DNA from: Castanea sativa
Lineage: Eukaryota > Streptophyta > Magnoliopsida > Fagales > Fagaceae
Assembly: GCF_040712315.1 (NCBI RefSeq)
Contig: NC_134018.1
Coordinates: 5,756,001-5,820,000, forward strand
Reading direction: 5' to 3'
DNA length: 64,000 nt
Part shown: piece by piece, positions 529 through 57,512 of the stretch
Position numbering within the stretch: the stretch's first letter is position 1
Layout of the letters: every line of letters starts with the position of its first letter
Program-made: the position numbers and the translations under genes
Notes under the pieces: model-generated
The model's input: only the letters and a program-made list of their open reading frames with translations
Told to the model about the DNA's origin: nothing
Databases searched by the model: none

Positions 529-530
529 GT

Positions 531-6360: not shown

Positions 6361-6361
6361 C

Positions 6362-9183: not shown

Positions 9184-9410
9184 CTGACTACCTACACACG
9201 ACGGGTTTTTCTAAGATCCTAGGCAGACGACTTCACTAAAGGGCGTCACTAGAAAAAGTAAAAAGGTAAAGTAAAGAAAACTTACGTGTAGGAGGACGGT
9301 CTCAAGAAGGTGACGGTTGCACGATCGACGGTGTGGTAAAACTGGCAGTGACGAATTTTTTCTCTCAAGATGAACAAGGCGAAAAAAGTGGAAAAAAGGT
9401 AAATAGTGAG

Positions 9411-9420
9411 ATATATATAG
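9411..9420 (-). promoter_or_regulatory. TATA box of the antisense gene
   Basis: On the minus strand the sequence reads CTATATATATCTC, about 230 bp upstream of the start codon at 9183 and outside the LTR. A start about 30 bp downstream would give a ~200-nt leader. A donor-like CAC/GTAAGT at 9285 and acceptor-like CTAG at 9219 suggest an optional leader intron. Confidence 0.5.
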
Positions 9421-9587
9421 GAGAGAGGAGGCGCGAAAGACGAAGTGACACACTCGTCCAGACGCGGAGCCAATCTGCTTACGACATGTGTCCCACCATT
9501 TAATGAACATGGCACAAATCACCATGCAAACACCATTTCCCCAGTAACACCAACTCCATGACCCGTCGCCTATAGCTGACGGGATAA

Positions 9588-9603
9588 TGGAGTGGGGGGC
9601 AGC
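9588..9603 (+). other. Polypurine tract
   Basis: ATGGAGTGGGGGGCAGC directly precedes the 3' LTR start TGATAGTG at 9604. This is the plus-strand primer position in LTR elements. Confidence 0.8.
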
Positions 9604-10345
9604 TGATAGTGACGTTATTACAAGGTGACGGCACATTAAGAAGCTGACGGAAGTTCACTTGTTACATATCCGAATGCACGTTAAGAAGCCGACGCAATAC
9701 GCTATCCGTCAACTACCGTCATTGACACCTCTTTAGCATTCATAGCCATGCCCCTTACGCAAGCGCAACATTAAGCCGACTCGGATCACGTGGACGAGTC
9801 GTGGGTGACGACCTTGGCCGTAAGGTCTTTGGCCGATGTCCTTGGTCGACGGACCACGTTGGCGTACGTAAGCCGACGACGCATAGGAGTTACACGTGGC
9901 CGACGACCTTGGCAGGTGAAGGCCGAAGGAATAATCCAACTTTCATTTTTAGCCTATCTGACCTCTCGCTTTATGTGAATATAAGGAAAGTCCTTGCGCT
10001 ACGCGTTCGACTTAGTTAAGAAGATTCCTATAAGGAAAGGGCTCAATACAATAGGCAAAGATCCGCGAATTACTCTTTTAAAAAGGAAAGTACTTCTTCA
10101 CCAAGGCGCATATTTCGGCCACACACCACTATATATACCCCAAGACCCTCATGACCCAAAGGTACGCACAATTACCTCGACTCTGGCACTCTAGGGTTGT
10201 TTAAAGATTCTAACTTGATCGTCGGAGGGTCTTTGGCCGGCACCACACCGGTGCTTTCTGTCGATCACCTACTTTTTTCTTCGCAGGTGTTGCTTCAAAT
10301 CGGTGGAGTACTAGCAGCTTACTGGTGATCTCTTAGGCATCATCA
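9604..10345 (+). repeat. 3' LTR of the gypsy element
   Basis: 742 bp, TGATAGTGACG to GGCATCATCA. It differs from the 5' LTR and the inverted solo LTR mostly within about 9670-9975, where CTG/CAG-containing sites are changed (for example GCTGACG to GCCGACG); the rest is nearly identical. Right flank AATTT. Confidence 0.95.
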
Positions 10346-10409
10346 AATTTCAATCAAAGACTATTTACACAATCAGGAGCCCACTTCAATATGACATAAA
10401 AGAGAATAC

Positions 10410-10732
10410 CCTTGGACCTGGCAGAACACGGCCATCAACTTGAGTGAAGCTGGTACTGATTGAAATGCCACATGAACGTAGCAAAGTTTCAGAATCATTT
10501 AATAGAAACATTTCAAAGCCTGCAGCAGAAAACAAGGACCAAAATGTAAGAAAGGAATACGGCAGTAAGAACAAAATCCATCACAATTTCAGAAAAGACA
10601 CTTACCTCACACAATACCTTCATCCTCTCTTGCGGCTTTTGCCTTGGTTTTTCCACTAGTGAAGCTCTTTCAAGAGTGGATAAAGCTTTTGTGTAACGTT
10701 GCAAGGACACCAATGAACAAAGCTGGAAAAAA
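10410..10732 (-). pseudogene. Argonaute (AGO4-group-like) exon fragment
   Basis: Exon 10732-10606 on the minus strand has an acceptor (TTTCCAG) and donor (GAG/GTAAGT) and reads LCSLVSLQRYTKALSTLERA, then a block with KPRQKPQERMKVL. The next exon, 10519-10410, contains SCGISISTSFTQVDGRVLPG. These match the linker-2 to MID region of AGO4/6/9-type Argonautes, the branch that binds 24-nt siRNAs in RNA-directed DNA methylation. The second exon starts out of frame (an in-frame stop soon after the acceptor), and I find neither the PAZ nor the PIWI domain nearby. This is an exon fragment, not a gene. Confidence 0.7.
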
Positions 10733-11883
10733 AAACAAAGGAGTAATAGAAACCACAGATGGCACGGACTTGTCTCTCAACCACTCTGCTTCTTTCAACA
10801 TAGACTTCAGCAAATTCAACCACTGCATGAAAAGCATTGCTCAAACCTAACCCTCACTAATTGGGGTTGCAAAGAACCTATTCTAACTTACCCCCACCCC
10901 CAAATTTAAAAAAAAAAATGTACATATAAAAAAAATCCACTCTAATACCACACACTGAAGCAAAACCAAAATGCTCATACAACTGGACAAGAGCTCTCTC
11001 TCTCAAAAAAAAAAAAAAAACTGGACAAGAGAAAAACAAATGATTCACAATTTCCTCATATTCACAAGACATCATACATGAATCAGAAACTACTTCTAGC
11101 TTTGTAATTTAGGTCTAACTTCACAAACAAACCATTATTAATTATTTCCACAGAAAAATAAGACGTTTCAAAGGTAATATCAAACTCTCAAATCTGGCCC
11201 AAAAGGAATTCAGCCAAGCAGAAACAACAGTACCATAATTATCATCCAAGGTCTAGTACTTTTCATAAGAAAACACTATAAAGTCCGGACCAGAATTAGA
11301 GTGTGGCGAGATTAACTTGTCCTTAAATTTTCCCCATATACAATGAAATCTTACATAGTTCACCCGCCACTGTAGGTTGGTGAAGTTTCCTAGTGATCAA
11401 TTAGATCTACAGTTCGCATAAAAACTCTCATTTTTCAATCTACCCTTCAACTTAAACCAAGTAGATGATTCAGCGAAACTGAAGTACCATCTCCAATACA
11501 CGATTTAGTTTTAAGCCAAAGCTGATTATCTACAAGACAGGACAACTTTCCAACCCAATAGTCAGAGCGCTTAAACCTGAAACTAAAAATGCTTTCCTTT
11601 ACAGTGCTTAGCCATTAACTCCTTATGCAGCAAACATTTTGGATTACAAATAACTCTATAACAGAACTGCTTTGCTATCAAACCTTATTCAAAGGACCCA
11701 TTTTCTACATCCTAATTCCTATCCCCTGATCTTTCTTAGATGAGCACAGATGGAATTCCAGTTTAGTAAATGAATTTACCTGCTCCCTACAATATCTCTA
11801 GAAAAAATACAAACAATTCCACCTCAAAATTTTCAAAACACTATGTTGCGTATCATTAGTCCCTGAACAAAAATAATACAATT
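10733..11883. other. Non-coding stretch between gypsy LTRs
   Basis: AT-rich, intron-like sequence beyond the AGO-like exons. It holds a small poly-A insertion (10982-11031). A minus-strand piece near 11000-11077 reads CEYEEIVNHLFFSCP, which faintly recalls the C-terminal zinc motif of LINE reverse transcriptases; this is weak. Nothing else is recognised. Confidence 0.4.
10982..11031 (+). mobile_element. Tiny poly-A insertion with 12-bp target duplication
   Basis: ACTGGACAAGAG occurs at 10982-10993 and again at 11020-11031, flanking 26 bp made of CTCTCTCTCTC plus an A run. This has the form of an extremely 5'-truncated retroposed insertion. Slippage at a simple repeat is the alternative. Confidence 0.45.
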
Positions 11884-12621
11884 TGATGATGCCTAAGAGA
11901 TCACCAGTAAGCTGCTAGTACTCCACCGATTTGAAGCAACACCTGCGAAGAAAAAAGTAGGTGATCGACAGAGAGCACCGGTGTGGTGCCGGCCAAAGAC
12001 CCTCCGACGATCAAGTTAGAATCTTTAAACAACCCTAGAGTGCCAGAGTCGAGGTAATTGTGCATACCTTTGGGTCATGAGGGTCTTGGGGTATATATAG
12101 TGGTGTGTGGCCGAAATATGCGCCTTGGTGAAGAAGTACTTTCCTTTTTAAAAGAGTAATTCGCGGATCTTTGCCTATTGTATTGAGCCCTTTCCTTATA
12201 GGAATCTTTTTAACTAAGTCGAACGCGTAGCGCAAGGACTTTCCTTATATTCACATAAGCAGAGGTCAAGATAGGCTAAAAATGAAAGTTGGATTATTCC
12301 TTCAGCCTTCACCTGCCAAGGTCGTCAGCCCACGTGTAACTCCTATACTGTCGTCAGCTTACGTACGCCAACGTGGTCCATCAGCCAAGGACATCAGCCA
12401 AAGACCTTACAGCCAAGGTCGTCACCCCTGACTCGTCCACGTGATCCGTCAGCTTAATGTTGCTGCGTAAGGGGCATGGCTATGAATGCTAAAGAGGTGT
12501 CAATGACAGTAGTTGACGGATAGCGTATTGCCGTCAGCTTCTTAACGTGCATTCAGTATGTAACAAGTGAACTTCCGTCAGCTTCTTAATGTGCCGTCAC
12601 CTTGTAATAACGTCACTATCA
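11884..12621 (-). repeat. Inverted solo LTR of the same gypsy family
   Basis: The full LTR in reverse orientation, TGATGATGCC to CGTCACTATCA, with no internal region next to it. In its own orientation the flanks are AATTT and AATTG, a likely 5-bp target duplication with one change. It matches the 5' LTR at 1-528 more closely than the 3' LTR at 9604-10345 and keeps the TGACG boxes lost from the latter. Confidence 0.93.
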
Positions 12622-19101: not shown

Positions 19102-20640
19102 CTAGGTTCGTTTAGTACTGCTTGTCGAAGCCCCACTAGAAAGCGGACATCTTCTACAGTTATGCTCGTGTTGATAACACAGTCCACAGCTCTGCTTTTG
19201 TTGAATCTCCCTCAAGTCAGAATCTGGCCTTCGACTTCCCGGTTTTTGCCAGACCCCATCCATCTCATTCCATATCCTACACTTCACAGGTCGACCTTTG
19301 GCCCACAACAGGTCTGGGTCAGGCACCCACTTTGGACCTTCCACATCCCTCTACAATGACTCTAACTTTGGCACCACAAATTGGTGTGAGTAGGTGCAAA
19401 TGACGTTCTCCAAACTATAATATGAGTCAATATATGTACTTGCATCTTGCCCCCAAGTACTGAAGAATTGTAATTGCATGTGAACAAGGGATCTTTCAAT
19501 TTTGCCACTTTCCACAACCACATATTCTGGTCAATATGTTTATTTCATGACTATGTTGTCCCCCTCCAAAGCTATGGATGTCGTACGCAGTCGTTGCTTG
19601 ATATATACCATGGACATTATTAAACGGCCTTACTTGGTGTGTTTTAGATTTTTTCAGATTGTGCTCATAGATTTCTAACGCTTATTTACTCCACACCTTG
19701 CCTTTCAAGAGATCATGAGTAGTTTTTTTGTGTCAATCATGGAAATATGTGACAAGTTTGCTCCAAGTGAATTCAACCATTGCAGCAATGGGCAGGCCAT
19801 GGGCACCTTTGAGTACTCCATTGAAGCACTCTGAGACATTGGTTGTCATAGCCCCATAACGGTATCCACCATCATGTAGCTGGGTCCACTTGTCTAGATC
19901 TTCTTTCATTAGATATGTGTATGGCATGATGGATGAGTCGGGTTCACTTACCTGTTGTTCGGTGGCTGATTTCTTCCTAAGGGTCTCGATCTCGGCTTCC
20001 TTGATAGGTTGCATGTACAACTTGAATTTAGCTTCCTGAGTAGCATACCCCGCTTTCAAGGCCAATGACTTTAAAGTGGTGTCCTGAAAATGTGTGTTGA
20101 AGTTGCTAGCAATATGTCAAAGGCAATATCTATGAAATACTCGTACTCGTCCATTATCATCTCTAAGCCATTTTGCAATTGCGTTTCGAATACCCTTATG
20201 TCAGTCAGAAATTACGCAGATGTCCTTATTTGCTATCACATCCCCAGTGAAATCCTGAAGCAATCTACAAACCACCTCCAACTAGGCCTTGATTCTTTGT
20301 CCACAACAGCAAAGGTGAGAGGCAAAACCTTGTTGTTGGCATCGGTGGCCATTGCAATCATCAACACCCCTCGATATTTACAATACAAATAGGTCCCATC
20401 ACTACTGATCACTGGCTTACAATGTCTGAATCCTTCAATGCACAGAGCGAAAGCCCAAAATACATATCGCAATATTGTAACACCTTCCTCTCTCGGTTCA
20501 GTGAGATACCAGTACCGGGTGCCAGCTTCTTGATCCAAGTATGCCAACAACAACTTTTTCAACCTTTCAAACGTTGCCTTACTAATGATATAGTTTGGAT
20601 TTTATAGGTACTTTATCAAAAATGCCTGAGTTTCTTTATT
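19102..20640 (-). pseudogene. MULE (MuDR-type) transposase, degenerate
   Basis: Read on the minus strand from about 20640: KKLLLAYLDQEAGTRYWYLT, then CKPVISSDGTYLYCKYRGVL with the first catalytic Asp, AMATDANNKVLPL, then ICVISD and a stop where R is expected, HRYCL-stop-HIASNFN, NVSECFNGVLKGA, a SWIM zinc domain (CGCGKWQN ... KIPCSHAI), and a C-terminal CGLCYQHEHNCRRCP knuckle. At least five in-frame stops break it. Plant MULEs are cut-and-paste elements that also capture host gene pieces, which matters for the gene debris at 10-17 kb. Terminal inverted repeats were not found. Confidence 0.85.
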
Positions 20641-21139
20641 GAATGAGGACTACTTGATTTAGATTTTTTTTTTGGGGAGAAAGTACTTGATTTTGTTGAT
20701 AGCACAGCAAGTAAACTTTTTTTTTTTTAACGGGAGCAGACTAGCATAGTAAGTAGATTATTTTTTAGATAATTATAACATGTTAATCTCACAACTTAAA
20801 CTCTTCCACCTTCACACCCAAGCACTTTGTGATAGAGAGATGTATTCAGCAGCAGGGCCATTCCTAGCCAAGGAAAACTTGAAAGGCATCTTACGTCACA
20901 ATGTCATCAAGAGCCTAAAAAAACCTGTGCAACTCTCTTCCCCAAATTGATGCATGTTTCACTGTTAGAGTCAAAATTGACACGCCCCATCTTAACCACT
21001 CCTCTATTGTCATCTTTTCAAAGAAAGGAAACCAACCAAGTCTTCTCAAGTACGTGTCTATTTCCATGTCCTAAACTTCATAAAATGTATAGTAGTTTGC
21101 AATTAATTCTCCAGACCAATCCAGCCCCATACCTGTGAC

Positions 21140-22277
21140 AGTGTGAGGGGGGACGTGATTGGCCTTGACCTCAGTTGTAGCTGGCTTTATGGCACCATAC
21201 CTTCCAACAGTACCCTCTTTCTTCTTTCTCACCTACAACATCTCAACCTCGCCTTGAATGACTTCAATTCTTCATCCATTTCATCTCGGTTTGGTCAATT
21301 TGCTAGCTTGAGTTATCTCAACCTTTCTAACTCTGTATTTTCTGGCCAAGTCCCATATGAATTATCTATTTATCTCTAATGCCCCAATTGGCCTCGCTAG
21401 ATTTATCCATCTTTCATCTTAGTATAGAAACCTCTGTTGTGAAAAGGCTTGTTCAGAATCTGACCAAGCTGAGAGACCTTCATCTTGATCTTAGTGACAT
21501 GTTTTCTGTTTCGCTTACTTCTTTCATGAATCTCTCTTCTTCTTTGATGTTCCTTTCTCTCAAAAGTTGTAGATTGCATGGGAGGTTACCGGATAACATT
21601 TTCTGACTACCAAACCTACGTGAGCTGAATCTATTTGGTAATTCTGAACTCACGGAGATTTTCCATTGTCAAATTGGAGCAATCCCCTTAGATTCTTGGA
21701 TTTATCTTAGACGGCTTTTTCAGGAGAATTACCGAAATCAATTGGCAATCTAAAATTCTGGAGGCAATTGGTATTGAATGGATGCAATTTTACTGGATCA
21801 GTTCCTGCATCTGTTGGTAACCTTACACAACTCACTCTTTTAGATATATCAAATAACCATTTTAGTGGGGAGATACCATCATCACTGTCAAATCTCAGAG
21901 AGCTCTCTCGCTTGGATCTATCTAACAACAATCTCAGTGGTAAGATCTCATCATCACTTTTAGTTGGCTATGCATAGTTCTTGGAAATCTTTTGAATCTC
22001 ATAAAATTGCAATTTTGCAGGACCAATACCCGTGTCACTTTCATTCCTAAAGGATCTCACTCTTATTGACCTCCGTCAAAACAACTTTGGAGGTGAAATT
22101 CCCAATCTTTTTCCCAACCTCACAAAACTCACGGATGCTTACATGTCTAATAACCAGCTTACTGGTAACTTTTGTGAATTCCAGTTTGGCAGTTCATTAC
22201 AGTTTCTTACATTAGATAATAACAGGCTATATGGCTGTATTCCAAAGTCAATCTCCAATCTTGTGAACATTTCAGAA
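21140..22277 (+). pseudogene. Receptor-like protein pseudogene, N-terminal LRR half
   Basis: VIGLDLSCSWLYGTIPSNST, then successive LRRs (HLQHLNLALNDF, LSYLNLSNSVFSGQVP, LTLLDISNNHFSGEIPSS, LSRLDLSNNNLSGKI, LTLIDLRQNNFGGEIP), the pattern of Cf-9/RLP12-type receptor-like proteins. Frameshifts and stops fall at about 21380, 21606 and 21977. The N-terminal region upstream (20940-21140) is poorly preserved. It is cut at 22277 by the copia element; the same gene resumes at 27894. Confidence 0.88.
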
Positions 22278-22596
22278 TAAGAAAATTTACTAAAGAAAAA
22301 ATGATTTTATTGATCTTAATGAAACTGAGATAATTACATGTATTTATAGTACCACTAAGTAACTAAACTAAGCCCAAGACTAACTTAACTGATCTAACAA
22401 ACTCCCTAACTAACCAACAGATATTTACAATTAAGTCAGTCACGTGTAGGTCACATGTCCACTAGCTAAAACTATACTAAATGTAGTCTTTGTATTTAAG
22501 CTACTTGTCGTTGTCCTCTATTTCATCTTTACTGCTACCTGGACTTCTGGATTCATGAAATTCATTCAGCTTCTCTAATTTCTTTAACTTCTGATA
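22278..22596 (-). repeat. 3' LTR of copia element 1
   Basis: 319 bp, nearly identical to 27561-27893. It lacks a ~14-bp CTAACTGTTCTAAC-type insertion present in the other LTR. Confidence 0.93.
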
Positions 22597-23433
22597 CTCC
22601 CCCTCAGGATGGACATCATGAGAATGAATATTGGAAATGCCCATCCTGGTAAGAAGACCACAAAATTGATTCCAAGTCAAAGCTTTTGTCAACAAATCAA
22701 CTAGCTGGTGTTGAGTTCTAATATCCATTAACTTTATGACTCCTGCTTGCACCTTATCCCTTACAATATGGCAGTCTATCTCAATATGTTTTGTACGCTC
22801 ATGGAACACTGGATTAGTACCTATATGAATTGCTGCTTGAGAATCACTGAACAGTAAGGCAGCTTGATTGTGTTTTACATTAAGATCCTTAAGCAAAAAC
22901 AAGATCCATGTCACTTTACACACTGCAACAGCCATTGCTCTGTACTTTGCCTCTACTGTGGACCTTGAAACTGTATTTTGCTTCTTAGACTTCCAAGAAA
23001 TGAGAGAATCACCAAGAAATACATAGTAGCCTGTGATGAACCTTCTAGAGTCAATGCATGCAGCCCAATCTGCATCTGCAAATGCCTTGATGTGTAAGGA
23101 GGACTGAGCTGAAAAGAACAACCCTTGTCCTGGGGTGCCTTTGAGATACTGAATTACTCTATAAGCTGCCTTTAAATGAGGCTCTCTAGGCTTAGACATA
23201 TATTGACTTAACCTATGTACTGAATAGGTAATATCAGGCTTAGAAATAGTAAGAAACAACAACCTTCCTATCAGTCTTCTGTACATCCCAGCATCAGCCA
23301 ATAACTTGCCTTCATCTTTACTTAATTTCAAATTTACTTCCATGGGAGTTTTAATAGGCTTGCATCCAAGCATTCCCACATCATTGATCACTTCAAGGGC
23401 ATACTTTCTCTGACATAGGGAAATGCCTTTCTC
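22501..23433 (-). pseudogene. Copia RT end and RNase H, original orientation
   Basis: Minus strand: [40 protein letters not shown], then [34 protein letters not shown] and [14 protein letters not shown], the copia RNase H end. The ORF runs 22501-23391 and ends inside the LTR. The first 260 bp of this segment (23174-23433) are repeated in reverse at 26608-26867. Confidence 0.9.
22597..22606 (-). other. Polypurine tract of copia element 1
   Basis: Minus strand TGAGGGGGAG directly before the LTR start TATCAGAAG; typical of copia elements. Confidence 0.8.
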
Positions 23434-23437
23434 ATAG

Positions 23438-24502
23438 ATGGGGCTTAACGAGTCATGTTCTCAGATCAAAGGACAGATCTTGTTAATGGAACCATTGACA
23501 ACCATTAACAAAGTCTACTCCTTGTTGATTCAAGAAGAGAGGCAGAGGAGTGTAGGGCTTGGTAATTTTGTTCACATAGAGTCTACTACTCTTGCAGTGA
23601 AGGGTTCCAATGTCAATTCCAATCCCAATTTTCCTGGTTTCTTTGGTAATTCTAGTGGCTTTGGGGGAAAGAATTCCAAAGGCAGAGACAGGCCTATATG
23701 TACTCACTGTGGGTAGCTTGGACATGTCATGGAAAAATGTTTCAAGCTACATGGTTTACCTCCAGGCTTCAAACCTAAAGGCAAGAACTTTATGGTGAAT
23801 CAAGTCAATATGCAAGAGGCTTGTGCAGACAATGGGCATACATCTACTAGTTTTCCCTTCACTTAAGAGCAATGTCAGCAATTTTTAACTATGTTGGGGG
23901 CTCAAATGCAAGCTACTCATCTCACTTCTGATGGCAAGGATGCTCAGTTCAATGTGGGCAGCAAGGAAGTACACATGGCCAACAATGTGATTAGGCTTAA
24001 TCCAGTTGTGTCTTCTTCTTCCAATGCCACAGATGCTCTCACCATGGCAGGTATGCCTAATTCTATTTGTACCGATTTGAGGCATTCAATTTTTTCTACT
24101 CAAATTATACATAGAACAACTTTTGATGGTAATACTTGGGTTATTGACACTGGAGCAACAGACCATATAGTGTATTCTGTTCATTTGTTGACTGATTTTA
24201 TTGCTGTTAATTGTGTGGTTGCACTTCCCAATGGTGAGACTGCTTTGGTAACTCACATTGGTTCTATATGTCTTTCTGATAATCTGGTCTTAAGCAATGT
24301 GCTTTGTGTTCCATCTTTCTCCTTCAATCTATTATCAGTCAGCCAACCCACCAAGAAAATGCATTGTTGTCTCATTTTCTTGTCTACTTTCTGTTTCATT
24401 CGAGACCTCAATTGTTGGAGGACAATTGGTGTGAGTAAAGTTCATGATGGGTTGTATCTTCTTCAACATAGCCCTCCTGATACTTGTGCCATTCCAATTT
24501 AG
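23438..24502 (+). pseudogene. Copia gag C-terminus and protease, inverted segment
   Basis: Plus strand, opposite to the element: [20 protein letters not shown] continues the gag that breaks off at 26868. A CTHCG-stop-LGHVMEKCFKLHG zinc knuckle follows (stop at 23714-23716 for Q). A second stop near 23863 again replaces Q. The protease is WVIDTGATDHI near 24138. Gag binds RNA and protease processes the polyprotein; neither can be made here. Confidence 0.88.
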
Positions 24503-24599
24503 TCCAAGGCTCCTTCATCTTTCCAATCTGTTTTTAATTTTGTTTTTCATTCCATTTTTAGTACAAATAAAACTTATGTAGTCAATAATGTCAAAATTC

Positions 24600-25480
24600 C
24601 AACTTCTGTCTGGCGTTCCAGACTTGGGCATCCCTCAGATGCTAAAATTTCTGTTTTGAAGAATGTACTTCCTGATCTCAATTGTTTTTCTAATGAAATT
24701 TGTGAAATTTGTCCTCTAGCTAAGCATAAAAGGCTTCCATTTCCTTTTCACAATCATGTTTCTGCTTTTCCATTTGATTTGATACATTGTGACATATGGG
24801 GTCCCTATGTTACACCTACTGTTGCAGGTCACAAATATTTCCTTACCATTGTTGATGATTGCACTAGATCAACCTGGGTTTACCTTATGAAATCTACGTC
24901 TGAAACTAGATCCTTATTACAATCCTTTTATGTTATGATTAAGAATCAATTTGGTAAGTCCATTAAAGTCTTTAGGACAAACAATGGCCTTGAATTTCAA
25001 ATGATTGAAGTTTTTAATCTTTATGGCATCATTCATCAACATAGTTGTGCTGCCACTCCATAACAATATTCTGTTGTGGAAAGAAAACATCAACATATCC
25101 TTTGTGTTGCTAGAGCTTTAAGACTTCAATCAAATGTACCTATTGCTTATTGGGGTGATTGAATTCTCACTGCTGTCCATCTTATCAACGGAATTCCTTA
25201 TCCTCTTTTAAACAACAAATCTCTTTTGAGCTTCTTTACAATAAACCTCCAGCTTATTCCCACCTAAAAGTGTTTGGTTGTCTCTGTTTTGCCTCCACTC
25301 TTTCTCACAATAGAGGTAAGTTTGACCCTAGGGCTATCAAGTCTGTTTTTCTAAGATATCCTTTTGGGGTTAAGGGTTATAAACTTTTGAGTTTACAAAC
25401 CAGATCATGTTTCATTTCCAGAGATGTAGTTTTTCATGAATCTGTGTTTCCTTTTAAGTCTCTTCTTGTTTCTATTCCTT
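24600..25480 (+). pseudogene. Copia integrase, inverted segment
   Basis: WRSRLGHPSDAKIS and CEICPLAKHKRLPFPFH are the zinc-binding start. LIHCDIWGPY carries the first catalytic Asp. FRTNNGLEF has Asn where the second catalytic Asp is expected (RTDNG in the family). Stops lie at about 25062 (Q) and 25161. The GKxKR-type C-terminal block FGCLCFASTL ... KSVFLRYP follows. Confidence 0.85.
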
Positions 25481-26867
25481 TGTCTCAGTCTAACCATTTT
25501 TATCATGCTTGTTTTCTTGATGCTCCACCACTCCCTGTCACTGATTCTATTCATCATTCTGCTCCTTTACCAGACCCCTCAATTCATGTTGATTCTTCTA
25601 TTCTTGAGGAACATTTCACTGATCTTCCGGAGGATTTGTCTGTCTTTGTTCCTAATGACATCACTGTTCCTATTTCTTCCTTGTCCATTGAACTTGCTTC
25701 TCCATCCCTTCCACCCAGTCCTGTTTCCCTCACTCCTATTCCCAGGAGGTCTACTAGACTCTCTAGACCACCTGCCTATCTTCAAGCCTATAAATGCAAT
25801 GCTGCTTCCACCAAATATCCTATTGCCTGTTATCTTTCCAGTCATAAACTCTCTTCCTTTTACTCTCATTTTTGTAATAGTATCTCCACCATTCTAGAAC
25901 CACAGTTTTACCATCAGGTAGTTGGTGATCCTAATTGGGATGCTACTATGGCAGCTGAAATTCAGGCTTTAGAACTCAATAACACTTGGTCTCTTGTCCC
26001 TTTGCCCCCACATAAAAAGGCAGTTGGTTGTAAATGGGTCTTCAAAATTAAATACAAGTCATATGGGAGTGTGGAGAGGTACAAGGCAAGGTTGGTTGCC
26101 AAAGGATATACTTAACAAGAGGGTTTGGATTATACTGAGACCTTCTTACCTGTTGCCAAGATGGTGACTGTTAAGCTTCTATTATCTTTGGCTGCTGTGC
26201 AAGGCTGGACTCTTCATGAATTAGATGTAAACAATGCATTTCTTCATGGTGACTTGCATAAAGAAGTGTATATGTGCCCTCCTCCAGGCCTGCCCAGCAA
26301 GGGGGAGTTTGTATGCAAGTTGAATAAGTCCTTGTATGGCCTTAAACAAGCCTCAAGGCAATGGTATTCTAAATTTTCCACTACTTTACTGCAACATGGT
26401 TTTCTACAGTCTAAGGCAGATTATTCTTTGTTCACCAAGCAATCTGGAACTTCTTTCATGGCACTTTTGGTATATGTTGATGATATACTCATTGCCAACA
26501 ATAATCCTCAATCTGTAGCAGACCTAAAAGTTGTTCTAGATAAGTAGTTTAAGTTGAAGGACCTTGGCAGTTTGAAATACTTCTTAGGCTTGGAAGTGGC
26601 TAGGTCTGAGAAAGGCATTTCCCTATGTCAAAGAAAGTATGCCCTTAAAGTGATCAATGATGTGGGAATGCTTGGATGCAAGCCTGTTAAAACTCCCATG
26701 GAAGTAAATTTGAAATTAAGTAAAGATGAAGGCAAGTTATTGGTTGATGCTGGTATGTACAGAAGACTGATAGGAAGGCTACTGTTTCTTACTATTTCTA
26801 GGCCTTATATTACCTATTTAGTACATAGGTTAAGTCAATATATGTCTAAGCCTAGAGAACCTCATTT
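25480..26867 (+). pseudogene. Copia linker and reverse transcriptase, inverted segment
   Basis: A proline/serine-rich linker, then NNTWSLVPLPPHKKAVGCKW, WVFKIKY, [40 protein letters not shown] and the [11 protein letters not shown] catalytic block near 26470. A stop at 26545-26547 replaces Q before [18 protein letters not shown]. It ends after MSKPREPHL at the inversion boundary 26867. Confidence 0.88.
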
Positions 26868-27472
26868 AAGAATTGCATAACTGATTCTTGAAGACGAAGA
26901 TCTTCAAGCTTCTGAGGCAAATTACAGGTACACTTTCCACAAGAACAAGTAGGGGTAGGCCTAAAATTCTGAAGTTGATCCCAAAATAGCTTTGATTGAG
27001 TGAAATAGTTGGTAATTAAGGACTCACTCTGACACATTGAAGCTATATCCTTTTGAAGTTGGAAAACCCTAGGTCCGTTCCCTTGAGAATGTGTATCCCT
27101 GAGATCATTCCAAATCTCCAGAGCAGTGTCTCTGTACGTGATACTCACTCGAATTTGAAGTGAAACAGTCTTCATCAACCAAGAACCTACCATGTTATCA
27201 CAGCGAATCCAAGCATCAACCGCCGCTAGAGTCTTTATCAATGGTAAGGAGAGAGTGATGCTACCATTGACAAAACCAAACTTATTCTTGGCAACCAGTG
27301 CTTTCCTCATTGAACAAACCCTAGCATGGTAATTCTCACCAATCAACGGTTCAGACACAAGCATGGCTCCAGGACTTTCAGCGTGATGAAGAAATAGAGG
27401 ATTTGAGATGTCCTCTACAAGTGCAGGATCTTGCACTGAGGAAGAAGACGAAGTATTAGTTGCTTCAGCCAT
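26868..27472 (-). pseudogene. Copia gag N-terminal part, original orientation
   Basis: ATG at 27472 gives MAEATNTSSSSSVQDP, then PLIGENYHARVCSMRKAL, WIRCDNMVGSWL and the gag-typical QLQKDIASMCQSESLITNYF. It reaches LQESVMQFL and then enters reversed RT sequence. The logical continuation (MGLNES...) is at 23438 on the other strand. Confidence 0.9.
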
Positions 27473-27548
27473 TGACGAAGCTTCAAAAAAAAAAAAAAAA
27501 AAAAAAAAACTCTCAAGAGTAAACCCTAGAAATTTTGGGAGAAAATAC

Positions 27549-27560
27549 GCTCTGATACCA
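27549..27560 (-). other. Primer-binding site of copia element 1
   Basis: Minus strand TGGTATCAGAGC right after the LTR; it pairs with the 3' end of initiator methionine tRNA, as usual for copia. Confidence 0.9.
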
Positions 27561-27893
27561 TAAGAAAATTTTTCTAAAGAAAAAATGATTTTATTGATCT
27601 TAATGAAACTGAGATAATTACATGTATTTATAGTACAACTAAGTAACTAAACTAAGCCCAAGACTAACTTAACTGATCTAACTAACTGTTCTAACAAACT
27701 CCCTAACTAACCAACAGATATTTACAATTAAGTCAGTCACGTGTAGGTCACATGTCCACTAACTAAAACTATACTACATTTACTCTTTGTATTTAAGCTA
27801 CTTGTCGTTGTCCTCTGTTTCATCTTTACTGCTGCCTGGACTTCTGGATTCATGAAATTCATTCAGCTTCTCTAATTTCTTTAACTTCTGATA
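27561..27893 (-). repeat. 5' LTR of copia element 1
   Basis: 333 bp, next to the PBS on its inner side. Nearly identical to 22278-22596. Confidence 0.93.
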
Positions 27894-29580
27894 CAGAACT
27901 TGATATTTCATCAAATAACTTGAGTGGCATTGTGAATTTTGAAATGTTCACCAAGTTTAAAAAAATAGGCACTCTTGCTCTTTCACATAATAGTCTGTCA
28001 GTAAGCATCAACAAAAAATTTAATCATACCTTCCCCGCACTTGATAACTTGGAATTAGCTTCTTGCAACATCACTCATTTTCCAAATTTCCTAAATACAT
28101 CATTTCTACGGCTAGACCTCTCTGATAATAGGATCTCTGGTCGAATCCTAAAATACAAATTCGGAACTGGGAAATATCTGATGTTCCTAAATCTTGCTTA
28201 CAACTTTTTATCAAGTATAGAGCTACTTCAATGGGAGAATCTAAGGTTCGTTGACCTTCGTGCAAATCTACTACAAGGACAGCTTCCTGTTCCACCATCT
28301 TTGGTGGACTTCTTTTCAATCTCAAACAATAGATTGTCTGGGGAAATCCCTTTGGGGATTTGCACTGTAAGTGACCTTTCCATATTGGATATCATATGGA
28401 TATCTCCTATAACAACTTGAGTGGTATTATTCCACGGTGTTTAGGAAACTTGGGCGATTCTCTGTCAGTGATAGATTTGAGTATGAATAGCTTCCAAGGA
28501 ACCATCCCTGAAACACTTGCAGATTGCACAAGATTGAACACCATCAGCTTTAATGGAAATCAATTGGAAGGACTCTTGCCACCAGCTTTGGTCAACTGTA
28601 CAAGTCTCAAAGTTCTAGACCTTGGAATAACAAGATAAATGGTTCATTTCCCTATTGGCTGGAAGCACTTTTTGTGCTACATGTTCTTGTCCTAAGATCC
28701 AATAGATTTCACGGCCGCATAGGAATTCATAATACTAGTGGGATGTTTTTCTCTAAACTACAAATTCTCGATCTCTCTCACAATGAGTTTACTAGTCTTT
28801 TACCAAGTCATTATTTTGGAAACATGAAAGCCATGATGATTAATGATGAGGGTAAACAAGAATTGGAATATTTGGGTGAAAATTATTTTCATGATATGGC
28901 GGGTTCAACTTATTATCAATATACAGTAGGGGTGACAGTGAAAGGTTTGGAGACTCCACCACTTGGAATCCCAACCATCTTCACAACCATTGATTTATCG
29001 AGTAACAAATTCTAGAGAGAGATTCCAGAGGCACTTGCAAGTCTTAACTTTCTCTGATTGCTTAATCTTTCCCATAATAGCTTAACCGGCTCTATACCAT
29101 ATTTATTGGCAAATTTGTCAGCACTTGAATCATTGGACCTCTCTTCAAATAGACTTGTTGGGGAAATCCCTATGCAATTGACAAGTCTAACATTTTCGGC
29201 TTTATTAAACCTTTCACAAAATCATCTCACAGGACCCATTCCACAAGGTAAACAGTTCGCTACATTTCAAAATGACTCTTATGATGGTAACTTGGGATTG
29301 TGTGGATTCCCATTGTCTACGCAATGTAGTACAGAGGCATCACCACTGCCACCACCATCAATATTCCAAGAAGACAATGATTCAATGTTTGCAAGTGGAT
29401 TTGGTTGGAAGGCTATGTTAATTGGCTATGGATGTGGCTGCTTGGTGTTTTGATTAGCTGTGGGATATGTTGCTTTTGAAACAGAAAAACCTCATTGGCT
29501 TGTAAGGTTTGTTAAAGGAGAACGAAATGGAAAGACAAGAAGGCCTAATAATAAAAGACTTGGGCGAAGAACAAGTTAAT
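27894..29580 (+). pseudogene. Receptor-like protein pseudogene, C-terminal half
   Basis: Resumes with LDISSNNLSGIVNFEMF and continues through LRRs (LSHNSLSVSINKKF, LELASCNITHFPNFL, SISNNRLSGEIPLGIC, IDLSMNSFQGTIPETL) to the GLETPP island, the last LRRs and NLGLCGFPLSTQC. The acidic juxtamembrane part is FQEDNDSMFASGFGWKAML, followed by a membrane segment broken by TGA at 29452 and a short basic tail ending near 29578. Frameshifts near 28400 and 28620 and stops near 29014 and 29055 show loss of function. It is closely similar to the C-terminal half of the intact gene at 31082-33640. Confidence 0.9.
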
Positions 29581-31081: not shown

Positions 31082-33640
31082 ATGTCGCGTCCGCCTATCC
31101 ACCCTTTCATCCTCCTTTTTTGCTTCCTCCACCTTTCCTCTGGAATCCAATCCAATGACCTTCAAATTCTCATGAAACTAAAATCCGCCCTTCAAACATC
31201 AAACACCAATGTCTTCAGTTCTTGGGAATCTGGAAATTCCATATGCAACTTCACTGGAATCTCCTGCAACTCCGATGATTCCATTACAGAAATCGAACTT
31301 TCATTCCAAAATTTAACCGGGGTTCTTCCTCTTGATTCCATATGCCAGCTCCAGTCACTAGAAAAGCTCTCATTCGGGTTCAACTACTTGCACGGTCCAA
31401 TTATGGACGACTTGAAAAATTGTGTCAAACTGCAATACTTGGATTTGGGCAACAATTTGTTCACAGGAAGGTCGGTTCCAGAAATATCCTCTCTAAGCCA
31501 ATTACGGTATCTACATCTGAATGCAAGTGGATTTTCTGGGATTTTCCCGTGGAAATCACTCCAAAACATGACTGGTCTTGTCTGGCTGAGCCTCGGAGAC
31601 AATCCTTTTAATCCTACTCCATTTCCAAACGAGGTCTTGCTGCTTACTAACTTGACTTGGCTTTTCCTATCAAACTGCGGCATCCAAGGCACAATTCCAG
31701 CAGAGATTGGAAACCTTAAAGAGCTAATCAACTTGGAGCTTGCCGACAATAACATGACGGGGGAAATCCCAGTTGAGATTGGGAACCTAGTCAACCTGTG
31801 GCAGCTTGAGCTCTACAACAATTCATTCACAGAAAAACTTCCTATCGGTCTAAGAAACCTCACAAAGCTTGAAATGTTTGATTTTTCGAATAACTATCTT
31901 GAAGGCGATCTATCTGAGTTGAGGTTCTTGAATAACCTGGTTTCTCTGCAACTGTATCAAAATGAGCTATCTGGCCAGGTACCGGCCGAGTTCGGCAACT
32001 TCACGAAGCTTGTGGACCTTTCTCTGTATAGAAACAGCTTCACTGGTCCGCTGCCTCATAACCTTCCCTCCTCGGCTAAAACTAATTTCATCGAAGCTTC
32101 TGAGAATTTCTTTACCGGTCCAATTCCACCAGATATGTGCAAGCAAGGTACTATGAAGTCGCTTATCGTGTCTGAGAACTATCTCACTGGTGAAATTCCA
32201 GCAAGTTATGCCACTTGTTCCACTTTAAGTCGTTTTGGGGTCAACAATAACTCACTCTCGGGGAAAGTTCCTATTGGAATCTGGGGATTACCGAACATGA
32301 ATCTAATTGATATCTCGTTGAATGATATTGAAGGCCCAATTACATCTGATATAAAAAACGCCAAGTCTCTTACATACTTATTTGCAGGAAACAATCGCCT
32401 ATCTGGTGAATTACCCGCAGCGATTTGCAACGTAAGTTTTCTTATAATTTTGGATATCTCTAATAATAGTTTGGAAGGCAAGATTCCACAATGTTTAGGT
32501 AACTTTAGTTATTATCTTAGGGTGATGAATTTGGGAATGAATAATTTCCAAGGTACCATACCTAATACATTTGCAAAGGGTAATCAGTTGAGAACTATTG
32601 TCTTCAATGACAATAATTTAAAAGGGCTATTACCAAAATCTTTTATGGACTGTAAAAATCTGGAAGTTCTTGACTTCGGAAACAACAAGATTAATGATTT
32701 ATTTCCTTACTGGTCTGAAGCTCTTACCAATCTGCAGGTTCTTGTCTTGAAATCCAACAAATTCCACGGACCTATAGGAAATCATAACACTAGTGGGGTG
32801 TTTTTCTTTAAGCTAAGAATTCTTGACTTGTCTCACAATGAGTTTACAGGTCTTTTACCAAGAAATTATTTTGAAAAATTCAATGCCATGATGATTAATG
32901 ATGAGGGCAGACTTGAACCGCATTATTTGGGTGAACGTTATACAGGTTATGGTTGTAAGCGTCAAAGTTGTCAATATCAGGATTCGGTGGCGGTGACAGT
33001 GAAAGGGTTGGAAATTAAACTACAACGAATCCTAACCATCTTTACAACAATTGATTTATCCAGCAACAAATTCGAAGGAGTTATTCCAGAAGTACTTGGA
33101 AGGCTTACAATCCTTCGACTACTCAACCTTTCCCATAATAGCGTAACTGGCCATATCCCATCATCATTGGCAAAATTGTCCGCACTTGAATCCTTAGACC
33201 TTTCTTCAAATAGCCTCACTGGAGAAATTCCTTTGCAACTAACAAATCTAACATTTTTGGCCATGTTAAATCTTTCACAAAACCAGCTTATTGGACCCAT
33301 ACCTCAAGGCAAACAATTTGCTACATTTGAAAACAACTCTTATGATAGAAACCTAGGATTGTGTGGATTTCCATTGTCAAGTAAATGCGGCACTAATGAG
33401 CTGACACAACGAGCACCACCATCAATATTCCAAGAAGACAATGATTCATTGTTTGCAAGCGGATTTGGTTGGAAGGCTGTGCTAATCGGCTATGGATGTG
33501 GCTTGTTGTTTGGATTAGCTATGGGATATGTTGTGTTTAAAATAAGAAAACCTATATGGCTAGTAAGGTTCATTGAAGGAAAACAAAAAGACAAGAAGAG
33601 AAGGCCTAATAATCAAAGACCTGGACAAAGAAGAAATTGA
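31082..33640 (+). CDS. Chimeric LRR receptor-like protein: RLK7/HAIKU2-type N-half, RLP-type C-half
   Basis: Intact 852-aa single-exon ORF. Residues 1-24 form a signal peptide (FILLFCFLHLSSGIQS). The N-cap cysteine pair is CNFTGISC. Residues ~25-445 follow the RLK7/HAIKU2 (LRR-XI receptor kinase) pattern: SICQLQSLEKLSFGFNYL, FPWKSLQNMTGLVWLSLGDN, PPDMCKQGTMKSL, ITSDIKNAKSL. From ~AGNNRLSGELP (near residue 443) onward it is a Cf-9/RLP12-type protein: QCLGNF, NNFQGTIP, an island around VAVTVKGLEI, NLGLCGFPLSSKCG, the acidic FQEDNDSLFASGFG, a GxxxG-type membrane segment (AVLIGYGCGLLFGLAMGYVV) and a ~35-residue basic tail. No kinase domain. In RLPs the C-terminal LRRs and juxtamembrane region recruit SOBIR1/BAK1; RLK7 itself senses secreted PIP peptides. 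A role at the plasma membrane in peptide or pathogen sensing is inferred. Confidence 0.88.
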   Translation: MSRPPIHPFILLFCFLHLSSGIQSNDLQILMKLKSALQTSNTNVFSSWESGNSICNFTGISCNSDDSITEIELSFQNLTGVLPLDSICQLQSLEKLSFGFNYLHGPIMDDLKNCVKLQYLDLGNNLFTGRSVPEISSLSQLRYLHLNASGFSGIFPWKSLQNMTGLVWLSLGDNPFNPTPFPNEVLLLTNLTWLFLSNCGIQGTIPAEIGNLKELINLELADNNMTGEIPVEIGNLVNLWQLELYNNSFTEKLPIGLRNLTKLEMFDFSNNYLEGDLSELRFLNNLVSLQLYQNELSGQVPAEFGNFTKLVDLSLYRNSFTGPLPHNLPSSAKTNFIEASENFFTGPIPPDMCKQGTMKSLIVSENYLTGEIPASYATCSTLSRFGVNNNSLSGKVPIGIWGLPNMNLIDISLNDIEGPITSDIKNAKSLTYLFAGNNRLSGELPAAICNVSFLIILDISNNSLEGKIPQCLGNFSYYLRVMNLGMNNFQGTIPNTFAKGNQLRTIVFNDNNLKGLLPKSFMDCKNLEVLDFGNNKINDLFPYWSEALTNLQVLVLKSNKFHGPIGNHNTSGVFFFKLRILDLSHNEFTGLLPRNYFEKFNAMMINDEGRLEPHYLGERYTGYGCKRQSCQYQDSVAVTVKGLEIKLQRILTIFTTIDLSSNKFEGVIPEVLGRLTILRLLNLSHNSVTGHIPSSLAKLSALESLDLSSNSLTGEIPLQLTNLTFLAMLNLSQNQLIGPIPQGKQFATFENNSYDRNLGLCGFPLSSKCGTNELTQRAPPSIFQEDNDSLFASGFGWKAVLIGYGCGLLFGLAMGYVVFKIRKPIWLVRFIEGKQKDKKRRPNNQRPGQRRN

Positions 33641-33841: not shown

Positions 33842-34914
33842 GTGAGACCATGTGGCATGTTGGACTTATGGTCCATTTGGATTGAGGAGAAAGAAGAGTA
33901 GAGTAAATTAGAGTAGATTTAGTACAATATTAGCTTATTTTCAAAGGATGGCATTGTGTTCAGTTGTACTTTTAATATTTTATTTTGCTCAATAAAAAAT
34001 GATAGACGAAATATTTATAATGGCAAAAATTACTGAAGAATTCTGAATTTGAGAAAGAAAACTACACTTCATAGATTCTACTTTCTACTAAGGAATCTTT
34101 CTTTCTTTTTTTTTGTTGCTAAATTACTTTCTACTAAGTAATCGTAAGAAGGGGAATAGAGATTGGATATATAGTGGAAATGGCCAGTAATACACTCCCA
34201 AGTCCCAACCCCACCTTGAAAGAAACGTTCTGCCTCATCCATTCACTCTCCTTGATTACACAGGACTCACCCACGTGTTTTCTTGCGTTCAGAAAAAAAA
34301 TAAAAAAATAAAAAAAAAGATTTGATATTTCTTTAATAGTTTCACCAGATAATCTGGGTCCAAATCCATTTTGGATAATGTCCGGAATGGTTCGATTATC
34401 AGGATGAAAAAATTTTGGTATGGTTCTGAACATTCTAGAATCTTTCCCGTCAATATAAAATTAATAGTCACACTAATGGAGAGAGAGAAGCACAATTAGT
34501 GTCGCGCGGGCATTTTCCTATATTGTATGAACCAAGCTCACTAAAAGAATTGTAGCCAGCCAAGGGAAAGTATGAGGAGCAACAGATTGGAAGGTATAAA
34601 AAGGATGGTCTACATCAATTTGGATCCATTAAAGGTATGGTAAGAGGGCTTTGAACAATTTTGAGACCAATCTATCCTGGTTGAGGTCATGTGTGAGAGA
34701 AAGAAATCATAAAGTTAAAAAAAATACCTATTGTGTAACAAAATAACAGTCTCTGCTTTGCTTTTCCCTTCATAAAAATCAGCAAAAAATCAACACCAAC
34801 AAACAAGGCTGTTGCAGTCCTTAATTTCAACATATTTGAATAATGGTTTTCCTTTTAAGAAGAATTTAATTGAGAAACTTTAGTTATAACACATAGAGAA
34901 TGATACCTGTCTTT
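33641..34914. other. Intergenic; no gene seen
   Basis: 3' flank of the chimeric receptor; (TG)n and a T run near 33815-33840, AT-rich. No supported ORF. Confidence 0.5.
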
Positions 34915-35270
34915 TCGAGTTATGGTTCTTGTCTTGAGATTTAATTGATTTCATGGTTCCGTAGGAAACCATAAAAGTAATGTGATGCTTTTCTCTAAAA
35001 TACAAATTCTCGACCTCTCTAGCAATGAGTTTACTGGTCTTTTATCGAGAGATTAGTTTGAAATGTTGAAAGCCATGATAATTAGTGATGAAGATAAAGA
35101 TGGACCATATCCTTTTGATCCATATGATTGATCTAGGAGAAGTGGTGTTTATCAAGATTCAAAAAAGGTGACAATGAAAGGATTGGAGACAAAATTAGTA
35201 ATAGTCCTAACCATCTTCCCAACAATTGATTTATCAAGCAACAAGTTCCAAAGAGCGGTTACATGAATGA
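34915..35270 (+). pseudogene. Third RLP copy, C-terminal fragment
   Basis: Fragment similar to 32740-33080 of the intact gene: a VLVLRF-stop-FHG block, FSKIQILDLSSNEFTGLL, KAMIISDEDKDG, VTMKGLETKL and FPTIDLSSNKFQRAV. It has several stops and no N- or C-terminus. It shows that RLP sequence was duplicated at least three times here. Confidence 0.82.
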
Positions 35271-55602: not shown

Positions 55603-55906
55603 GAAGAAATGAATATTGCATATCTCATAGATTACATCAGGTACAAGTATATATAAGCTAGCTAATCATAACTGAATTATGGCGCCAAACCATCCTAACA
55701 GATTTGGATGAAGTCTAATAGAGTAACAGAATACACACACGTGTATAATTGTAACTAACCAATACTTCAAGCACTTAACTATAACTACATACAGTTTTAC
55801 ACTAGACTAAACTATAGGTCATTTAGGCAGATTATGCAGCTGTGCTTTTCTATGAACTGATGCTATGCTAGCTAAACTTCTTGAGGCAACACCATCATCC
55901 TTTACA
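55533..55906 (-). repeat. 3' LTR of copia element 2
   Basis: 374 bp, longer than the other LTR because of a (GA)n expansion at 55570-55598 and a TATATAAGCTAGCTAATCA stretch absent on the right. Confidence 0.95.
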
Positions 55907-56268
55907 TCCCCCCTCAAACTAAGGGGAGGAAGTCCCATGAGTTTGACAAAAAAAGCATGAAAATGAGGAGAAGGCAAGCTCTTGGCAAATAAATCAGCCA
56001 ATTGATCCAAGGTAGAAATATATTTGAGAACTAAATCTCTATTCAAAACCTTCTCACAAACATAGTGGTAATCGACTTCAATATGCTTAGTGTGGGCATG
56101 AAAAATAGGATTAGAAGCTAAGGCAAGAGCTGAGACATTGTCACACCACAAAATGGGAGGATGATACAAATAAATCCCTAAGTCCTTGAGAAGCATCCTT
56201 AACCAATAGACCTCAGCAGTGGTAATAGCAAGGGATCTGTACTCAGCCTTAGTAGAAGATCGAGACAC
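55819..56268 (-). pseudogene. Copia RNase H end (element 2)
   Basis: SRSSTKAEYRSLAITTAEVY, WLRMLLKDL, NPIFHAHTKHIEVDYHYV and DLFAKSLPS are the conserved copia RNase H end. It stops at 55819 inside the LTR. A stop upstream at about 56291 separates it from RT; the intervening DVDWARD-type block near 56350 can still be read. Confidence 0.9.
55907..55918 (-). other. Polypurine tract of copia element 2
   Basis: Minus strand TTTGAGGGGGGA immediately before the LTR start TGTAAAGG. Confidence 0.8.
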
Positions 56269-56475
56269 AACAGCTTGTTTCTTGGCAGACTAGGTAATAG
56301 GTGAAGAACCCAAGAAAACAACCATGTCAGTAATGGATCTCCTATCTAAATGATCCCTAGCCCAATCAACATCACAATAGGCTGAAAGGGAGAGAGGACC
56401 AGGCTTGAAGTGAATTCCCAAATGAAGAGTACTTGTTAGGTATCTCAAGATCCTCTTAGTAGCAATGAGGTGATG

Positions 56476-57512
56476 TTAAGAAGGCTTGCTCATGAACTGA
56501 CAAGCTTGCTGGACTGCATAAGACAGATCTGGCCTGGTAAAGGTCGAGTATTGTAAAGCCCCAACAAGGCTTCTATAAGCAGTGGGATCTGAGAGTAGAG
56601 GACTGACAAAAGCATGAGAATGAGTAGAAGCACATGGATTAGAAGCAGGCTTACAATCCAACATGTGAAATCTAGACAATAGGTCTTTGGCATACTTAGA
56701 TTGATGCACAAACAGACCAGCAGCAGTATACTCAACTTGCAGCCCTAAGAAGTAACCCAAAGGACCTAAATCCTTAAGGGCAAAGGAAACACCAAGCTGT
56801 TTGATAATCTCAGCAACAAAGGCACCATTATTGCCAGTTATAATAATGTCATCCACATACAAAAGGAGGTAAACAACATAAGCTGAATGAATAAGGATGA
56901 ATAGATTACTGTCAGCACAAGAAGCATGAAACCCCAAGTGAAAATTTGAGATGTAAAGCTATCAAACCAAGCATGAGGGGCCTGTTTAAGGCCATAGATT
57001 GCCTTGTGTAACAAACAAACATGATGAGGCTTAGACTTATCTCTATACCCAGGGGGCTGACTCATGTATACTTCCTCTTGCAAAACACCATGTAAAAATG
57101 CATTGGAAACATCCAATTGCCTAAAGGACCAACCAAAATGAACAGCCAAAGCAAGAATGATCCTCACAGTAGTAGGCTTCACCACTGGACTAAAGGTCTC
57201 AATATAGTCCAAACCATATTGCTGCAAGTAACCCTTGGCAACCAACCTGGCCTTAAACCTAGCAATACTCTTATCACTATGCCTCTTAACCTTATACACC
57301 CATTTACATCCCACAACATTCTTATCAAGAGGCAAAGGAACTAGAGTCCAAGTATGCTGCTGTTGCAAACTAGTAAATTCTGAATCCATAGCATCAACCC
57401 AATGAGAATACTTAAAAGCAACAGAATATGAAAGAGGCTCAGTACAGCTATAATCAGTTTGAACAGAAAAAGCTTTAGGCTTGAAAATACCATTCTTGGA
57501 CCTGGTAAGCAT
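56476..57512 (-). pseudogene. Copia reverse transcriptase (element 2)
   Basis: LVPLPLDKNVVGCKWVYKVK, RLVAKGYLQQYGLDYIETFS, LDVSNAFLHGVLQEEVYMSQ, LYGLKQAPHAWFDSF, then a frame change near 56930 and LLLYVDDIIITGN with the catalytic DD, KDLGPLGYFLGLQVEY, and PDLSYAVQQACQFMSKPS. The frameshift and a stop near 56478 disable it. Confidence 0.9.

Follow-up and report, generated by a model that had tools for sequence, protein, structure and literature searches.

In the 64,000-nucleotide stretch of the Castanea sativa genome analysed here (contig NC_134018.1, positions 5,756,001 to 5,820,000; hereafter the window), a single open reading frame on the forward strand, at 31082–33640, encodes a chimeric receptor of 852 amino acids (aa). 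Residues 1 to about 446 come from an RLK7/HAIKU2-type kinase of the leucine-rich repeat (LRR) XI class, and the rest is the C-terminal end of a receptor-like protein (RLP) of the Cf-9/RLP12 type. The frame starts with ATG, has no internal stop in its 852 codons and reads as one exon. Comparison with related proteins indicates a real fusion receptor common to Castanea and Quercus, which probably works and whose sensing is altered. An earlier, sequence-only reading had proposed the fusion from the uninterrupted frame and from the blocks PPDMC, TSDIKNAKSL and AGNNRLSGELP, all three of which are found in the translation.

A single switch between two receptor families

When the window protein (P0001 in our comparisons) was cut into overlapping 120-aa segments, the first seven matched an RLK7 panel best and the next seven an RLP panel best, with one switch between them. 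A single breakpoint fits best at residue 446, with a tie range of residues 435–449 (32384..32428) that lies within NNRLSGELPA/AICN, and both parents carry the LRR consensus at this point. Among the best 120 matches listed, RLK7-type kinases are 62–74% identical to residues 1–445 and 24–32% to residues 453–852; the exceptions over the N-terminal half are P0006 (55%) and P0081 (85%, over part of that half). RLPs, again among the best 120 matches listed, give 24–32% over the N-terminal half and 44–69% over the C-terminal half. The closest proteins among the matches listed are from Fagaceae, with P0002 of Castanea dentata 96% identical over the N-terminal half.

Searched separately, and with other chimeras set aside, the halves match different families, which favours fusion and bears out the proposed pairing of an RLK7/HAIKU2-type N-terminus with an RLP end. 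An ordinary RLP with both halves of one family is thereby ruled out, as is a truncated RLK7, its C-terminal half being RLP-like in each test. In an AlphaFold2 (AF2) model of the 852-aa form the solenoid is unbroken over the join, with block values of the predicted local distance difference test (pLDDT) of 94–97 at residues 431–470 and 53–81 over the island domain. A Foldseek search with the whole model, topped by GSO1, MIK2 and FLS2 with HSL1 at rank 8 and RXEG1 at rank 49, was not discriminating.

The sensing half opens with a hydrophobic signal peptide like the start of Fagaceae RLK7 (residues 1–22, 31082..31147, boundary placed by eye), followed by the cap domain LRRNT_2 (PF08263; residues 24–63, 31151..31270), which Pfam reports along with LRRs and no kinase domain. 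The RLK7/HAIKU2-type repeats then occupy residues 64–446 (31271..32419), with repeat starts from residue 69 to residue 430, so that a join at 446 leaves RLK7-type repeats through the one that starts at 430. This register is a pattern-based reading in which the repeats at residues 69 and 334 were added by eye.

The RLP part begins with the C2 repeats (residues 450–601, 32429..32884), then an island domain (residues 602–648, 32885..33025, inferred boundary) and the C3 region, the last four LRRs, which closes on a QxxT motif (33029..33325; QFAT, residues 745–748). C3 repeats with QxxT or QxxS, here four of them after an island domain, are a mark of SOBIR1-type RLPs of the Cf-9/RLP12 kind (PMC10834447). 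As the sequence-only reading had stated, an acidic extracellular juxtamembrane stretch (residues 770–796, 33389..33469, inferred boundary) precedes a transmembrane helix with three overlapping GxxxG motifs (glycines 803, 807, 811 and 815; 33473..33541) and a short basic cytosolic tail (33542..33637), all typical of RLPs, as is the absence of a kinase. RLP-type N-terminal repeats are missing, as the 24–32% identity above indicates. Conversely, the protein groups with RLK7/HAIKU2 kinases by its N-terminal half and has neither their cytosolic kinase nor their RxR pair. As in a decoy-type protein, the ectodomain resembles that of a kinase receptor and stands without that receptor's kinase; tblastn with the Quercus robur RLK7 (P0022) detected no kinase remnant in the window.

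The junction is shared by Castanea and Quercus

The same junction, a finding that the sequence-only reading had called for in related genomes, is present in Castanea and Quercus gene models: the letters ELPA/AICN recur in P0002 (C. dentata), P0004 (Quercus), P0005 (Q. lobata) and P0010 (Q. suber). P0008 of Q. robur has a longer join than the window copy, and P0003, a 948-aa Q. robur protein from a 27-member cluster, has the longest, with its break at SIRLND/NLLQGKLL. The simplest order would be fusion first and loss of repeats at the join later.

These gene models call for some care. P0002 and P0005 omit, as an intron, the stretch equal to 32432–32737, and the C. dentata and Q. lobata models thus point to a candidate in-frame intron of 306 nucleotides in the window (AAC/GTAAGT ... 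CTGCAG/GTT). Its removal leaves 750 codons, with 19 instead of 24 residues in one repeat; in AF2 the 750-aa form folds worse than the 852-aa form, with pLDDT of 75 in block 441–450 and below 50 at residues 506–551. P0004 has other gaps, and P0007 jumps to just before C3. P0010 passes from AICN into cox15-like sequence, and P0005 also ends in such sequence; a tblastn search with P0010 found no cox15 sequence in the window. The kinase-bearing P0081 is chimera-like before a switch near position 345 (window-protein numbering), after which it follows the canonical Fagaceae RLK7. We considered it as a possible kinase-bearing donor, but it may equally be a recombinant, a case of gene conversion or a misassembly.

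Fusions in Fagaceae and in other families

In a tree of the N-terminal halves (44 rows), the Fagaceae chimera rows, which include two Q. suber models without the RLP half, form one clade with P0081 (98/92), separate from four Castanea/Quercus RLK7 kinases (100/99). Together with a Fagus HAIKU2 and these four kinases the chimeras make up a Fagaceae group (97/99), whose inner order the tree does not settle. The tree of the C-terminal halves (51 rows) puts six Fagaceae chimeras together in a clade (96/78, unstarred) within the Fagaceae RLPs (23 rows, 98/94).

Similar chimeras occur in other families. P0039 (Rubus), P0043 (Dipteronia) and P0096 (Hibiscus) combine an RLK7/HAIKU2-type N-terminal half with an RLP-type end, as does a Rhododendron protein. 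The N-terminal halves of the Rhododendron, Rubus, Hibiscus and Dipteronia chimeras group with kinases of their own families (100/97, 100/100, 100/99 and 100/98, respectively), which rules out one ancient fusion common to these and to Fagaceae, in a tree read without a formal topology test. The C-terminal half of the Rhododendron chimera sits among Rhododendron RLPs (100/100). Since in both Rhododendron and Fagaceae each half is placed within its own lineage, two independent RLK7-RLP fusions are well supported by the trees. Gene models suggest further fusions in Rubus, Hibiscus and Dipteronia; the Rubus and Hibiscus C-terminal halves are long branches of unsure placement, the Rubus RLP end is apparently of a different RLP class, and Dipteronia is not among the rows of the C-half tree. 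Near residue 160 the Rhododendron model contains an anomalous stretch, and the Hibiscus model lacks part of the repeats. In the chimeras of Fagaceae, Rhododendron, Rubus and Dipteronia the break comes after LRR14, where the RxR position lies; the Hibiscus chimera is the exception.

No Fagus chimera was found among the best 120 matches listed per search, though Fagus kinases were present there, and the tree does not settle the order at that point. Fagus is described as basal in Fagaceae, and the split of Castanopsis and Castanea is dated to 48.3 million years ago (PMC12135283). The fusion shared by Quercus and Castanea would thus be at least 48.3 million years old.

The ligand-facing surface is selectively changed

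An arginine pair, RxR at residues 384 and 386 of the window protein, is present in 105/105 RLK7-type kinases. These were drawn by identity, coverage and a kinase motif from 243 proteins (the best 120 rows per search, many of them shared, and including the window protein), and matches that did not span about residues 60–430, such as P0081, were dropped; being selected by identity and coverage, the set leans towards kinases like that of the window. At the aligned position (32231..32239) the window copy reads Arg-Phe-Gly (RFG), and the other Fagaceae chimeras read RFK (P0002), EFR (P0003), RFR (P0004), RFM (P0005), DFR (P0007) and RFR (P0010), so that 5/7 are altered. The aligned letters are RIR in HSL1 and RVR in HAESA. 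In HAESA, Arg407 and Arg409 contact the carboxylate of IDA, whose C-terminus lies within LRR11–14 (PMC4848090); the aligned HAESA pair would be these two residues.

The change extends beyond this pair. Among 110 sites that are at least 97% conserved in the kinases, 14/20 on the exposed strand and 11/90 elsewhere are changed in at least one of seven chimeras (p = 4.7e-7); the window copy alone accounts for 5/20 and 2/90. These tests used P0001, P0002, P0003, P0004, P0005, P0007 and P0010, leaving out the partial P0041; P0008 is without most of its N-terminal half. P0010 counts as a chimera-clade N-terminal half only, its C part being cox15-like, and was kept because this half groups with the chimeras and ends in ELPAAICN. 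In the AF2 model, changed positions such as 195, 219, 267, 290, 314, 338, 362 and 386 are the closing residues of concave strands. Most of the sites hit more than once (338, 362, 364, 384 and 386) lie in LRR12–14 (residues 334–405, 32081..32296), which align with the part of HAESA where the C-terminus of the peptide sits (PMC4848090).

Several controls bear on this pattern. Eight Fagales kinases set aside together gave 3/21 exposed and 4/80 other sites (p = 0.15), and 0/300 random sets of seven kinases reached p ≤ 0.01. The true register has the lowest p of 24 shifts, with shifts 2, 3, 21 and 22 also below 0.05, and p stayed at or below 0.00015 whichever chimera was left out. Counted by parsimony, the chimera clade has a ratio of exposed to other rates of 3.48 (105 and 113 changes) and the five chimeras with the shortened join one of 3.26 (40 and 46), compared with 1.23 on the remaining kinase branches, including Fagus (88 and 267; p = 9e-9 against the chimera clade). 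Taken pairwise, the ratio has a median of 1.17 and a maximum of 2.88 over 5454 kinase pairs, and ranges from 1.76 to 3.93 over 21 chimera pairs. Between P0001 and P0003, for example, 38/75 exposed and 50/281 other sites of the N-terminal half differ.

The chimeras of other families do not share this bias. The Rhododendron protein is changed at 0/20 exposed and 6/90 other sites, which fits a younger fusion or a retained specificity, and no significant bias is seen in Rubus (3/20 and 5/90), Dipteronia (2/20 and 1/90) or Hibiscus (5/20 and 12/90).

The signalling end

C3 and its QxxT have been linked with contact to SERKs, and the GxxxG helix with SOBIR1 (PMC10834447). Between P0001 and P0003, 1/20 exposed C3 sites differ and 17/74 others, a split of changes distinct from that of the N-terminal half (p = 0.0015), and the C2 repeats have no exposed-site bias (10/30 and 33/116). 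The co-receptor face of C3 thus appears from the alignment to be largely kept.

Genomic setting

The sequence-only reading had noticed two dead RLP copies beside the open frame. Both exist, and the upstream one proved larger than it had described. Dead copy 1 comprises an N-terminal part at 21131..22277 (+, tblastn) and a C-terminal part at 27869..29576 (+), which has three stops in the stretch aligned to the chimera's C-terminal half; a copia-type long terminal repeat (LTR) element at 22282–27894, with end repeats 22282–22597 and 27566–27894 about 97% alike, splits the two. Dead copy 2 is a fragment with three stops downstream of the chimera (34868..35260, +). In C. dentata the chimera gene 06G032000 lies, by gene number, near the RLP genes 06G032400 and 06G033000, and in Rhododendron about 30 gene numbers separate the chimera 01G0071400 from the RLP 01G0074400 on the same chromosome. 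These positions suggest that the fusion arose inside RLP clusters.

Other mobile sequences are found in the window. A MULE (Mutator-like element) transposase fragment (20239–20598, −) lies directly upstream of dead copy 1. A retroelement with reverse transcriptase and integrase domains, which from its domain set we take to be of the Gypsy type, occupies 1–12411, with inverted arms at 1–528 and 11884–12411 that are 99% complementary; its region holds a tandem array at 5997–6378, seen as ten overlapping matches with 28-nucleotide spacing. A second copia-type element lies at 55668–60514, with a 508-codon copia gag frame between direct repeats (55668–55853 and 60329–60514) that are 95% alike.

Discussion

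We lean towards reading the protein as a SOBIR1/BAK1-type receptor with re-specified sensing, an immune sensor being more probable than a receptor for PIP peptides. The computation shows the fusion, its shared junction, the family placement of each half, the open frame and the site pattern; from these we infer the order of events, the use of SOBIR1 and BAK1, the class of ligand and the immune role as follows. Before Quercus and Castanea parted, and probably within a cluster of RLP genes, a duplicated RLK7-type gene would have recombined in frame with one of the Cf-9/RLP12 type where their LRR consensus stretches match, and a later exchange between repeats would have deleted two repeats at the join. 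The product would be a membrane receptor-like protein without a kinase. Its C3 repeats, juxtamembrane stretch and GxxxG helix would bind SOBIR1 and bring in BAK1/SERKs, and the RLK7-derived repeats would sense. This sensing surface would have been re-specified, with the framework kept, ligand-facing strand residues changed and the carboxylate-binding arginine pair altered.

RLK7 binds PIP1 (PMC4154866) and interacts with CEP4 (PMC12507258). The sequence-only reading had supposed that the fusion retains such endogenous, PIP-type sensing, which is not supported for this copy, where RxG replaces RxR and the concave face is selectively changed. The groove would no longer suit a free peptide carboxylate, and the likeliest ligand is therefore not a PIP or CEP peptide. 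It could be something else that fits the groove, such as a pathogen product that targets RLK7 or imitates an RLK7 ligand, and its perception would feed SOBIR1 immune output.

A number of results weigh against this reading. The Arg-to-Lys change in P0002 is conservative, and RxR is intact in P0004 and P0010. Without P0007 the exposed count falls to 10/20. The four Castanea/Quercus RLK7 kinases are raised too, with a parsimony ratio of 1.84 (29 and 59 changes; p = 0.010 against the chimeras), and Castanea-Quercus kinase pairs reach 2.2–2.6 (up to 2.55). A higher exposed rate would also be expected if constraint had relaxed once the ligand was lost, and protein sequences do not separate such relaxation from positive selection. 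In C3, the contrast between exposed and other sites has p = 0.059 on its own. In a test against 42 hand-picked RLPs, the chimera's C-terminal half has lost 3/91 conserved RLP sites and dead copy 1 has lost 4/91; because the dead copy scores alike, retention of this half is silent on function, and we dropped its constraint as a proof of function. Finally, the models P0002, P0004, P0005, P0007, P0008 and P0010 are spliced, truncated or fused to a neighbour, which may reflect decay in some genomes, isoforms or annotation choices.

A decoy or sink, which would still bind PIP/CEP-type peptides or factors acting on RLK7 and, having no kinase, would dampen or guard RLK7 signalling, seems to us unlikely, although the sequence-only reading had raised a decoy role as its alternative. 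It draws on the RLK7-type repeats retained up to the one at 430, on the 107/114 conserved N-half sites that are kept, and on the precedent of RFO2, a published RLP with PSY1R-like repeats for which a decoy model has been proposed (PMC3662643). Yet the RxR pair and LRR12–14 hold most of the multiply hit sites, and the RLP end keeps the features of SOBIR1/SERK contact. A PIP sink is less likely because RxR is changed; a guard-type decoy comes close to the explanation that we prefer, a re-specified immune sensor.

We consider it improbable that the gene is a non-functional relic, an in-frame recombinant that is open by chance and drifting like its dead neighbours. The two adjoining dead RLP copies, the fragmentary orthologue models in several species and a C-half retention no better than that of a dead copy would all suit such a relic. 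However, 852 codons are open, the junction letters are common to two genera and the exposed C3 sites are largely kept, and the changes spare the framework (11/90) and cluster on the concave face (14/20), as neutral decay would not. An assembly or annotation artefact joining two genes is scarcely credible: repetitive LRR clusters may misassemble and the Q. suber and Q. lobata models do run into a cox15-like neighbour, but the frame is unbroken in the window, and assembly error is ruled out because models from other genomes, C. dentata and Quercus, have the same junction letters.

Among known receptors, the RLK7/HAIKU2 kinases share with the chimera its N-half sequence, LRR register, cap and position in the N-half tree. 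The chimera differs from them in having no kinase and no RLK7 sequence past the join, in the altered RxR and in the 14/20 exposed conserved sites changed across the seven Fagaceae chimeras. Cf-9/RLP12-type RLPs share the C-half sequence, island domain, C3, juxtamembrane stretch, helix and tail, and are set apart by their own N-terminal sensing repeats, in place of which the chimera has RLK7-type ones.

The nearest precedent is Arabidopsis RFO2/RLP3, which, like RLP2, has repeats closely resembling those of a peptide-hormone receptor kinase (PSY1R), an RLP C-terminus and no kinase (PMC3662643, PMC7318236). RFO2 has a role in resistance (PMC3662643). It is, in the account of PMC3662643, not simply a truncated PSY1R, whereas PMC7318236 describes RLP2 and RLP3 as truncated PSY1R paralogues. 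PSY1R belongs to the LRR-Xb kinases and resembles RLPs by kinship in its end region, while the donor here is an LRR-XI kinase (RLK7); the chimera, moreover, is joined well before the island domain, and its peptide pocket is altered. The engineered EFR-Cf-9 also sets a kinase-receptor ectodomain on a Cf-9 end, and it reportedly interacts with SOBIR1 and depends on SOBIR1 and BAK1 (PMC6637901). It is laboratory-made with another ectodomain, whereas the chimera is natural and its RLP part includes C2, island and C3.

No report of an RLK7-RLP fusion was found in the titles and abstract openings listed from the open-licence PMC literature, a scope that excludes supplements. Receptors of this kind are known already; what appears new within those listings is that the donor is an LRR-XI kinase, that such fusions recur and that the groove has changed. 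Taken more widely, RLK7-type ectodomains may have been captured repeatedly onto RLP ends, either as integrated decoys or as converted sensors, in both cases for pathogen products directed at RLK7 or its peptides or imitating them. In Fagaceae an arms race would then have diversified the groove and left the SOBIR1/BAK1 end unchanged; we offer this tentatively, as possible and short of probable.

The chimera would be a natural counterpart of engineered receptor swaps, with a hormone-peptide sensing half on an immune RLP chassis in two genera. If the reading is true, it would represent one route to new immune specificities and make RLK7 a possible pathogen target. It suggests that plants can convert hormone receptors into new immune sensors.

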